Source: Candidatus Saccharimonadota bacterium
Lineage (GTDB): Bacteria; Patescibacteriota; Saccharimonadia; Saccharimonadales; Saccharimonadaceae
NCBI GenBank assembly: GCA_017514675.1
Contig: JAFWIY010000024.1
Coordinates: 1 to 43,548, forward strand
DNA: 43,548 bases
Reading direction: 5' to 3'
Under the pieces are notes generated by a model. It was not told where the DNA came from. It saw only the letters and a program-made list of their open reading frames with translations, and made no database searches. Made by a program: the position numbers and the translations under genes. Below are positions 15,294 to 42,286 of this stretch, in pieces; position 1 is the stretch's first letter, and the number at the start of each line of letters is the position of its first letter.

Positions 15294-15297
15294 CTTC

Positions 15298-15318
15298 AAA
15301 AGCCCTTCGGGCTTTTTT
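15298..15318 (+). terminator. tRNA-Asp terminator
   Basis: AAAAGCCC, TTCG loop, GGGCTTTTTT; starts 4 nt after the tRNA CCA. Confidence 0.85.
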
Positions 15319-15324
15319 CGTGTC

Positions 15325-15517
15325 AAAAAGCGAGACGTCGGACCTCCGGCTTCGCCTCCGGTGCGAGTCTCGTCGAGCGGAGCTCGGACCTTCGGTGCGG
15401 TTCCGCCACGTTCCTAGCGGAACGCACAAAAAGCGAGACATCGGCCTTCGGCGCGAGTCTCTATTTTTTTGCGTCAAAAAGCGAGACGTCGTGCTTCGCA
15501 TCGAGTCTCGTTTTTGC
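15325..15517. repeat. three related hairpins with tRNA-Asp 3'-end fragments
   Basis: Three copies of AAAAAGCGAGAC...GAGTCTC start at 15325, 15427 and 15476, each a stem-loop with CGAGAC/GTCTCG arms. Copies 2 and 3 end in T runs, so the last also serves as terminator for the 15519 gene on the minus strand. Between copies 1 and 2 is a GTGCGGTTCCGC/GCGGAACGCAC hairpin (15395-15426). Segments CGAGTCTCGTCG (15364-15375) and CGGTTCCGCCAC (15398-15409) match the tRNA-Asp 3' end. Confidence 0.75.
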
Positions 15518-36215: not shown

Positions 36216-37960
36216 TACATTTCCTCCGGGATTTTAATGCCGAGAATATTTAGACCGTGGGTCATGGTTTCGAGATAGACTTTGACCAGTTTTATTCTTT
36301 CGGCTTCGTGGTCGCAGCCGATTACTGGGCAGGATTCGTAGAATCTTGAAAATTCTTGGGCGAGTTCGTATAAGTAATTTGCTACTTTATGGGGCGACAT
36401 TTCGGCCACGGCTTCTTCTAGTACGCCTTTGTATCCCAGAATCTTTTTTATCAGAGATCTTTCGCTCATCTGAAGCTCTCTCGACCCCGTTCGCTCAGGC
36501 CCGTCGTCACGGGCTTCGCTCACTTCGCTCGGGTCGTAACCCTCGCGGGACACGGTCTCGAGACCTTCAGATTTCGCGAAACTTTCAGATTTCCCAGAAC
36601 CTTCAGTTTGCGCGAGACTCTTTGCGAGAATTTTTTTGGCTCTGACTGCGGAATATAAGAGGTAGGGGCCGGAGTTACCGGTCATTTTGACAGATTCTTT
36701 AGGATCGAAAATGATGTTGCCGCCCATTTTGTACTTCAGAAATGCATATTTCGTGGCGGCGAGGGAGACTTTGTCGTCGGAAGAATCGTAGGCGCTCTTT
36801 AGCTCATCTTTTACCATATTAAGAACATCGATGGCTTTTAAGAAATTACCTTTTCTGGATGCCATTTTAACATTGCCTGGTAGCCTCACTAGGCCGTGGG
36901 TTAAGTGTGAAGTTTTTTCTACTAATTCAGGAGCGTATTGTTCGATAGATTTTAAGACGACTTTCATATATTCTAATTGTTCACTAGCAGTAATGATGAC
37001 AGATTTGTCAAAATGATAGTCATCCCATTTAGTGAAGATAAGGCCGACATCTTTGGTTTCGTAGGTTGGGACACCTTTTTGATTGATAAATACACGGGTG
37101 TGAAGGCCGTATTTTTCGCCGTTGAAAATCACGGCGCCATCGGACATCTCGTAAACGCCCTTTTCTAGCTGCTCTTTAACAGTTTTAAGACCGAGGGCGG
37201 CAACGGAAGATTCAGGATAGTATTTGTCGAACTTGACACCGATTGAATCGTAGAAGTTGTTGAAATACTCGTAAGATAGTTCCCTGCCTTTCCAGTACAG
37301 GTTGGCTAGGTGGGCGTCGTGAATGTTTTCGGCATTTATACGATAGATTTCTTGGTTGAGAGAATCGATTTCGGCTTTGGCATTTGGGTCATCTTCGTAA
37401 ACTGCGGTGCCCTCTACGTAGCATCTTGCGATGTCTTCAATGGTTAAATTGTCGAGAGATTTTTGTTGCAAAATATACATAGTCTTGGCAACGTGGAGGC
37501 CGACATCGCCACCGAAGTTTGCGCGAATAACTTTGGCGCCGGCATATTCAAAGAGTTTACCAATTGAGTCGCCGACAATAGAGGTATAAAGATGGCCGAC
37601 ATGGAGGACTTTGAAGGGATTAGGATCGGAGAATTCACAAATGACAGTTTTGCCCGCAAACTTATCCGATGCGATGCGATCGTTAAAATCGTTGGATAAA
37701 TTATTTATTTCTTCGTTTAAAAATTCATCAGATAATTTAAAATTTAAAAAGCCGGGGGCAGATATTTCTGCATTTAATTCTCTATTTAATTCTTCTGCTA
37801 TTGCCATTGGAGATTTGTAGAGTTCTTTGGCGAGTTTGAGTGGGGCGTTGGTGGAATAATCTGCATCGAGGTTTTCGGGAGCTGGAGTAATTTCGGGGTC
37901 AAAATCAAGGTCGTATAAATCTTTTATGGTGAGTTTTACTTTTGCGATAATTTCTTGCAT
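36215..37960 (-). CDS. argS: arginyl-tRNA synthetase with palindromic insertion
   Basis: 581 residues from MQEIIAKVKLTI. Charges tRNA-Arg; a tRNA-Arg(CCT) is at 42014. SDPNPFKVLHVGHLYTS carries the HVGH form of the HIGH motif at 120-123, MASRKGNF replaces KMSKS as in many ArgS, and the anticodon-binding DALR domain (SPHKVANYLYELAQEFSRFYESCPV) ends the protein. Residues about 448-497 contain three hexapeptide repeats and then a segment matching a palindrome; both are absent from the family pattern. A start 30 codons earlier would lie upstream of the TATAAT that is 6 nt before this ATG, so this ATG is used and the mRNA is leaderless. Confidence 0.95.
   Translation of the reverse strand: MQEIIAKVKLTIKDLYDLDFDPEITPAPENLDADYSTNAPLKLAKELYKSPMAIAEELNRELNAEISAPGFLNFKLSDEFLNEEINNLSNDFNDRIASDKFAGKTVICEFSDPNPFKVLHVGHLYTSIVGDSIGKLFEYAGAKVIRANFGGDVGLHVAKTMYILQQKSLDNLTIEDIARCYVEGTAVYEDDPNAKAEIDSLNQEIYRINAENIHDAHLANLYWKGRELSYEYFNNFYDSIGVKFDKYYPESSVAALGLKTVKEQLEKGVYEMSDGAVIFNGEKYGLHTRVFINQKGVPTYETKDVGLIFTKWDDYHFDKSVIITASEQLEYMKVVLKSIEQYAPELVEKTSHLTHGLVRLPGNVKMASRKGNFLKAIDVLNMVKDELKSAYDSSDDKVSLAATKYAFLKYKMGGNIIFDPKESVKMTGNSGPYLLYSAVRAKKILAKSLAQTEGSGKSESFAKSEGLETVSREGYDPSEVSEARDDGPERTGSRELQMSERSLIKKILGYKGVLEEAVAEMSPHKVANYLYELAQEFSRFYESCPVIGCDHEAERIKLVKVYLETMTHGLNILGIKIPEEM
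36468..36572. repeat. palindromic insertion in argS
   Basis: Outer arms ATCTGAAGCTCTC (36468-36480) and GAGACCTTCAGAT (36560-36572) pair with one mismatch. Inside, GACCC/GGGTC encloses GCCCGT/ACGGGC. GGCCCGTCGTCACGGGC (36498-36514) is shared with the polA element at 16 of 17 positions. 105 nt, frame open. Confidence 0.8.
36563..36616 (-). repeat. three 18-nt tandem repeats in argS
   Basis: Units 36563-36580, 36581-36598 and 36599-36616 share (A)C-YTTCAG-T-T-GC-like sequence and encode hexapeptides of the form L/G/F-x-x-S/T-E-G/S. They adjoin the palindromic element. Confidence 0.7.
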
Positions 37961-42013: not shown

Positions 42014-42089
42014 GGCCTGGTAGCTCAATGGATAGAGCAATTCCGTCCTAAGGAAGAGGTTGCGCGTTCGACTCGCGCCCAGGCTACCA
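42014..42089 (+). tRNA. tRNA-Arg (CCT)
   Basis: 76 nt with encoded CCA. Acceptor GGCCTGG/CCAGGCT (first pair G-U), D-stem GCTC/GAGC, anticodon loop GTCCTAA (anticodon CCT, reads AGG), T-arm GCGCG-TTCGACT-CGCGC. Its 3' end is repeated at 42251-42269. Confidence 0.94.
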
Positions 42090-42128
42090 GATAAAAAAGA
42101 AGGCCCGTAGGGTCTTGTTTTTTATCTG
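42090..42128 (+). terminator. tRNA-Arg terminator hairpin
   Basis: GATAAAAAA and TTTTTTATC flank an AAGGCCC/GGGTCTT inner stem, making one long hairpin directly behind the CCA. Confidence 0.75.
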
Positions 42129-42133
42129 ATGCT

Positions 42134-42262
42134 CTTGGGAGCGAGGCGAACTTTAGTTCGCCCGCTGTAGGAGGCGAGCGAAAATCTAAAATTTATTTTA
42201 GATTTTCTGAGGCGACGCCCAGCGGGAAGGCTTTGCGAAGCAAAGCCTTGCTCGCGCCCAAG
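42134..42262. repeat. cloverleaf-like palindromic element behind tRNA-Arg
   Basis: Outer stem CTTGGG-A-GCGAG (42134-42145) with CTCGC-G-CCCAAG (42251-42262); inner CCGCTG/CAGCGG. Three hairpins: GCGAACT/AGTTCGC (42146-42161), AAAATCTAAAA/TTTTAGATTTT (42181-42206) and AAGGCTTTGC/GCAAAGCCTT (42227-42249). The last outer-stem bases are part of the repeated tRNA-Arg 3' end. Confidence 0.8.
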
Positions 42263-42286
42263 TTGCCAGTGAGAACAGTTGAATAA

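Follow-up and report, generated by a model that had tools for sequence, protein, structure and literature searches.

A tRNA-linked repeat-type unit behind tRNA-Arg(CCT) of a Candidatus Saccharimonadota bacterium and its relatives

The window analysed here is the whole of a 43,548-nucleotide contig (JAFWIY010000024.1, assembly GCA_017514675.1) from a Candidatus Saccharimonadota bacterium of the family Saccharimonadaceae. Near its right end a tRNA-Arg(CCT) gene of this uncultured gut bacterium is followed by a terminator-like hairpin, an ordered three-hairpin element and a repeat of the tRNA's 3′ end. Judged by its layout, this unit is almost certainly of the type known in E. coli as tRNA-linked repeats (TLRs). 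The locus comprises the following features:

42014..42089, + strand: tRNA-Arg(CCT), the host gene and source of the copied 3′ end
42090..42128, + strand: intrinsic-terminator-like hairpin that starts right after the CCA and opens the repeat unit (inverted repeat 42088-42106/42110-42128, 89% complementary, with a T-run)
42134..42145, + strand: left arm of the outer stem, CTTGGGAGCGAG, which repeats, inverted, the inner acceptor and T-stem 3′ strand of the tRNA
42146..42161, + strand: hairpin 1, GCGAAC-TTTA-GTTCGC, the tRNA T-stem 5′ strand plus TTCG, inverted and then direct
42162..42226, + strand: hairpin 2, with the conserved internal loop GTAGGAG...GAGGCGACGCCC; first half of the palindromic heart, lying in the T-loop of the copy
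42227..42249, + strand: hairpin 3, AAGGCTTTGC-GAA-GCAAAGCCTT; second half of the palindromic heart
42251..42269, + strand: right arm, repeating the tRNA 3′ end (positions 58-76 and one further base)

The 19-mers CTCGCGCCCAGGCTACCAG (42072-42090) and CTCGCGCCCAAGTTGCCAG (42251-42269) are identical at 16 of 19 positions with a start-to-start spacing of 179 nt, and their three differences (G>A, C>T and A>G) are all transitions. A match of this quality was reached in none of 3000 Markov-simulated 400-nt flanks, where the maximum was 13, confirming the transition-only repeat reported in an initial annotation of the sequence. The terminator and highly ordered three-hairpin element which that annotation placed between the copies are equally real: with its closing outer stem the element folds as DNA at -46.9 kcal/mol (z = -7.7, equalled by 0 of 200 shuffles) and as RNA with z = -5.6. 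The 19-nt copy stands as described, but it had been taken as too short, its extension having been overlooked. The true copy spans approximately tRNA positions 50-76, with the T-loop split by hairpins 2 and 3. Hairpin 1 extends it leftward, with TTCG and the T-stem 5′ strand of tRNA-Arg. The suggestion that the element arose from the tRNA end is borne out by the left arm and hairpin 1, which are inverted and direct copies of the T-arm and acceptor. Elsewhere in the window (15294-15408) tRNA-Asp(GTC) is also followed by a TLR-like unit, made of a terminator and an inverted-plus-direct T-arm copy (GCGAGACGTCGG..GCGAGTCTCGTCG); here the tRNA-end copy is interrupted by an extra fold-back hairpin.

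The same arrangement, which the initial annotation proposed looking for at tRNA-Arg and other tRNA genes in relatives, is found there behind tRNAs of 25 anticodon types. Of nine homologues recovered by blastn, seven follow a tRNA gene (Arg CCT and TCG, Glu, Pro, Val twice, Gln), and in each of these seven the right end is that of its own tRNA. A covariance model built on the three hairpins only, arms excluded, has matches in 145 of the 174 genus genomes, with up to 20 copies per genome. The bins are draft metagenome-assembled genomes (MAGs) in which many copies lie near contig ends; among 141 distinct copies with flanks, 121 follow a same-strand tRNA gene at a distance of at most 260 nt, and for 97 of these the distance is 45-70 nt. 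The organism names of pattern matches indicate Candidatus Saccharibacteria, mainly of the ruminant gut, and a sample of the order (4 genera of 143) yielded the heart of this genus in no family other than that of the host.

The excess of own-end repeats near tRNAs that had been proposed is real and large. It was counted in three genomes of the genus and one outgroup by searching around every retrieved tRNA gene for a match of at least 14/19 to its own last 19 nt within 300 nt, the ends of other tRNAs serving as control. In the three genomes 11/39, 17/45 and 20/44 tRNA genes (28-45%) repeat their own end, a few of these matches being neighbouring full tRNA genes (e.g. tRNA-Pro), against 27/1478, 57/1978 and 45/1890 (~2-3%) for the controls. 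Most of the units in these genomes are heartless and only 50-90 nt long, with the same inverted-plus-direct layout. In the outgroup, which belongs to a different family of that order, 4 of 32 tRNAs repeat the own end (control 29/986). Units of similar layout stand behind tRNA-Phe and tRNA-Leu (L368 and L380) in G022, which belongs to another family of the order, and the left arm of L380 is a perfect 17-nt inverted copy of the tRNA end.

Read as a whole, the unit is built as follows: tRNA, terminator, inverted copy of approximately tRNA positions 50-76, short loop, direct copy of 50-57, two-hairpin heart, and direct copy of 58-76 with CCA. The palindromic heart of hairpins 2 and 3 measures ~85 nt and is placed in the T-loop of the direct copy. 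Class-wide, hairpin 1 is the T-stem 5′ strand plus TTCR of the unit's own tRNA, inverted and direct, so that GAGTTCG of tRNA-Ala appears as GAACTC..GAGTTCG and TGGTTCG of tRNA-Asn as GAACCA..TGGTTCG; short units likewise contain inverted-plus-direct T-arm copies, with 3-nt loops. Agreement with the own tRNA over the three bases preceding TTC averages 2.70/3 compared with 1.95 +/- 0.06 after shuffling, and TTCA is found in the element for six of the seven tRNAs that have it. The left arm matches the own tRNA end at 7.95/11 and other tRNAs at 5.88/11, the own end being the better match in 72 of 76 cases. For the right copy the match to the host tRNA end is at least 15/19 in 80 of 121 units and 19/19 in 32. 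All well-preserved units contain inverted copies of the copied tRNA segment. In several units the terminator recurs right after the second copy, for example at tRNA-Ile(tat) (L271) and tRNA-Val(gac) (L276), and true tandem arrays occur at L022, L042, L157, L190 and L243. At L157, behind tRNA-Leu CAA, two identical 182-bp units stand in tandem as a recent duplication. A common spacer, GAGTTGGGAACCG[GT]AGCGTCCCAAGGGGCAAA, is shared by L267 and L338 (G140) and L268 (G104), which lie behind tRNA-Thr(tgt), Pro(cgg) and His(gtg); common to units with differing tRNA ends, it is a second heart family.

TLRs go back to Egan and Landy 1978 and Rudd 1999, as described in PMC8144298, which gives the class this name. 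E. coli K-12 has 22 of them at ten loci, the last 18-19 bp of each being identical to those of the tRNA or rRNA upstream (PMC8144298). Nine E. coli loci were read, and four operons carry TLRs (tyrTV, lysTWYZQ, lysV and argVYZQ); the other tRNA operons read have no tRNA-end copy outside tRNA genes. In K-12, tyrV is followed by three 178-bp repeats, each ending in the last 19 bp of the tRNA. The tyrTV sequence GGGGAAGGAT-GA-GAAGCTTCGACCAAGGTTCG-insert-AATCCTTCCCCCACCACCA has the layout of the window unit, including a T-arm fold-back (GGGGAAGGAT-GA-GAA...GGTTCG-insert-AATCCTTCCCC). The repeats of lysTWYZQ, lysV and argVYZQ combine an inverted left arm with several hairpins and with the end of the host tRNA in a further copy; lysQ and lysV also have the inverted-direct T-arm.

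The E. coli TLRs, the tyrT/tyrV repeats and RttR RNA among them, resemble the window unit in lying downstream of a tRNA, in length (178 bp vs 179) and in having an inverted left arm, several hairpins and a CCA-ending copy, and the loops TTTA, GAA, GCA and GCCA recur in both E. coli TLRs and Saccharibacteria units. Like TLRs, the Saccharibacteria units lie immediately 3′ of a tRNA in the same orientation (121/141, the window copy after tRNA-Arg), end in a copy of the tRNA 3′ end (the window copy being degenerate at 16/19) and come as one to several tandem units (L022, L042, L157, L190). The hearts are unlike by inspection, with AACGTTGC..GCAACG and GCCCGAAGGGC in E. coli but GTAGGAG..GAGGCGACGCC here, and the frequency differs as well: E. 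coli K-12 has ten loci, whereas the three counted genomes of the genus have repeats at 28-45% of their tRNA genes. In Rfam, at both thresholds, tRNAs are the only credible matches. Because the hearts differ and no credible Rfam match exists, common descent with the E. coli TLRs is not claimed.

The interiors of the units appear to move between species, as judged from sequence comparison. For 35 of 68 hearts the nearest neighbour lies behind the same tRNA type in another species (expected 4.4), and for only one of 68 does it lie in the same genome (expected 1.7). Transposition within a genome onto other tRNAs, which had been expected, is not seen; hearts group by tRNA type. At tRNA-Val(tac), G006 and G123 have interiors that are 99-100% identical, but their flanks agree at 61% upstream and 59% downstream, within the baseline for unrelated flanks (mean 55%, max 66%). 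The tRNA ends of these two genomes differ by two bases, and each right copy is that of its own host. G010 and G167 agree at 97-99% over the right half (heart, copy and a further 250-300 nt downstream) but are unrelated on the left, a pattern read as a recombination joint within the unit. These few transfer cases, drawn from MAGs, fit cassette exchange at tRNA ends.

A solitary copy at L004 (1490-1596) consists of high-scoring hairpins 2 and 3 with neither outer stem nor a tRNA in the 1489 nt upstream, which suggests that the heart can exist alone. A weaker heart class (~45-60 bits) is seen inside protein genes, apparently in frame, at L124, L104, L146, L172, L130, L168, L092 and L098; at L104 (2130-2221) the weak copy lies between two QueA profile matches. 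The class resembles palindromic elements inserted in coding genes. In their position, the Rickettsia palindromic elements are comparable to this weaker class, while the window copy is unlike them in being intergenic and tied to a tRNA. The window also holds, at 36439-36631 on the minus strand, a strongly palindromic, low-complexity in-frame stretch of the arginyl-tRNA synthetase (ArgRS) gene, between the catalytic and DALR domains.

All 37 modelled pairs of the element show two-sided changes, and 97.9% of cells are standard pairs, counts that lean towards the modelled structure since the covariance alignment was fitted to it. The covariation score is 0.635, falling to at most 0.087 when the partners are slid. 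G-U pairs make up 1.1-1.6% in the elements compared with 6-9% in the acceptor and T stems of tRNAs of the same genus and 3.1% in terminators. Hairpin 1 closes on a GNA triloop in 80 of 107 copies, and hairpin 3 mostly on TTTA, GAA or GCTA. GNA and GNNA loops form extraordinarily stable DNA mini-hairpins (PMC4686876). Near-pure Watson-Crick pairing and DNA-stabilising loops together favour single-stranded DNA hairpins or hairpin-templated copying, and suggest that the units arise by fold-back copying of single-stranded DNA.

The mechanism that we propose, with a probability of roughly 40% for the whole, is a TLR unit made by fold-back copying, kept by hairpin-templated upkeep and spread by integrase-free cassette exchange. 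At the terminator hairpin a nascent 3′ end would snap back and make an inverted copy of the tRNA end; returning to the template, it would copy the tRNA end again, now direct. Hearts would then enter the T-loop of the direct copy, and the palindromes would be held perfect by hairpin-templated copying of single-stranded DNA. Finished cassettes could be swapped between cells via the duplicated tRNA ends, which would act as short homologous joints with no need of a dedicated integrase. On this scheme a by-product may arise in the form of a second terminator or a processed RNA. Several points weigh against this scheme. The fold-back route is deduced from the anatomy of the units, and no intermediate, whether a circle or a single-stranded form, was seen. 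Among the 121 right copies, 29 agree with the tRNA end at fewer than 13/19 and are decayed or truncated. Host-type ends are not universal, the right copy in the G010/G167 pair fitting the tRNA of the other species, and clear interior transfer is seen in few pairs, from MAG data. The outer stem has no excess of compensatory change (18 for and 9 against, or 6 vs 7 without the first position). Finally, G-T mismatches exceed A-C mismatches by 65 to 38, a possible sign of some selection acting on the RNA strand.

That last imbalance and the strong covariation of the hairpins speak for another reading, a functional RNA: the cloverleaf would be transcribed by read-through from the tRNA promoter, the second tRNA end would be kept because RNase E, P or Z uses it to form the 3′ terminus of that RNA, and selection would act on the hairpins as RNA (small RNA or second terminator). 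E. coli offers a precedent in rrA/rrB/rrF, TLRs behind 5S rRNA for which read-through transcription, processing and binding of Hfq and CsrA are described, and recognition of the repeated 3′ end by RNase E was proposed by the same authors (PMC8144298). The tRNA-linked TLRs of E. coli, however, had no known function according to the same 2021 paper (PMC8144298). An RNA function of the unit is possible, but as the full explanation it is rather unlikely: the window unit and most of the others that were read have a terminator-like hairpin in front of them, G-U pairs are less frequent than in tRNA stems by a factor of 4-8, the commonest loops of hairpins 1 and 3 are GNA and TTTA instead of the RNA-favoured GNRA and UNCG, and a processing signal needs no match to a particular upstream tRNA, yet the match exists.

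The initial annotation had pointed to site-specific integration (attL/attR). In such a reading a tyrosine recombinase would put a tiny non-autonomous circle into the T-loop, with the tRNA as attL and the second copy as attR. The copy does begin at the T-loop, often with an old terminator after it, as in tRNA-borne attachment (att) sites; interiors apparently pass between species, and a Xer-like tyrosine recombinase is encoded in 160 of 170 genus genomes. The unit nonetheless differs from tRNA-gene integrative elements in having no integrase, an insert of ~160 nt, many tRNA types and an inverted arm, which integration leaves unexplained. In most relatives tRNA-Arg(CCT) has neither element nor second copy, but G123, G080, G010, G001 and G004 keep a second copy around other, shorter spacers unrelated to this element, and G130, at the orthologous locus marked by the same SurA-like gene upstream, has a short heartless unit. 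A second copy in relatives that lack the element is the result that the initial annotation itself had named as refuting its reading. Twenty-five anticodon types, each with its own tRNA end, are not expected of one integrase, and the copy-rich genomes G167, G133, G109, G140 and G152 have no extra integrase, only one PF00589 protein each. Classical integration would also bring the tRNA end with the element, whereas in G006 and G123 both ends are host-type around an identical interior. The second copy in the window is not an isolated att scar, integration is improbable, and the initial annotation as a whole is partly supported. A simple tandem duplication in place, of the tRNA 3′ part together with the terminator, with hairpins added later and no mobility, would account for the true arrays here and in E. 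coli tyrTV; as a full account it too is improbable in view of the inverted tRNA segments in every well-preserved unit and the near-identical interiors between unrelated flanks in different species. Very improbable is a transposition like that of repetitive extragenic palindromic (REP) sequences, with hairpins 2 and 3 moved by a Y1 transposase (RAYT) or an IS110 bridge-RNA system and the tRNA end as target-site duplication. It would agree with the conserved GTAGGAG at the palindrome foot and with hearts that occur singly, apart from tRNAs and within genes (L004), and REP sequences and bacterial interspersed mosaic elements (BIMEs) share with the unit short GTAG palindromes in many copies. Heartless second copies exist, however, the tRNA-end linkage and large multi-hairpin unit are unlike REP/BIME, and Y1 transposase is present in only 8 of 170 genomes (none in 162, nor in that of the window) and the IS110 family DEDD transposase (PF02371) in 3 of 170, as against 145 of 174 for the element.

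As general movers, RAYT, IS110 and extra integrases were thus rejected as too rare or uncorrelated with the elements. Two pattern matches in IMG/VR, candidates for viral carriers, and the pattern matches in non-Saccharibacteria genome contigs were attributed to chance, there being no credible covariance-model match among the scanned loci. Integron attC sites are comparable to the unit as folded single-stranded DNA with a variable loop and conserved architecture, but no IntI-type integrase was identified here and there are no cassettes of that kind.

A broader conjecture, which we consider unlikely, is that the TLRs of the two distant phyla are one kind of protein-free mobile cassette that would replicate as single-stranded DNA hairpins and have its arms rebuilt, inverted and direct, from whichever tRNA end it comes to lie behind; if so, the tRNA gene itself would be both landing pad and template. 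The tyrT repeats of E. coli have been known since 1978, and the Saccharibacteria unit is of the TLR type with a new heart and in a new phylum. Repeats near tRNAs are not necessarily integration scars. With the TLR architecture at about a third of the tRNA genes in a reduced-genome genus of Saccharibacteria, a comparative system with many replicates is at hand, and the origin of these units, whether by fold-back copying, integration or selection as RNA, is now testable by alignment statistics and simple experiments.
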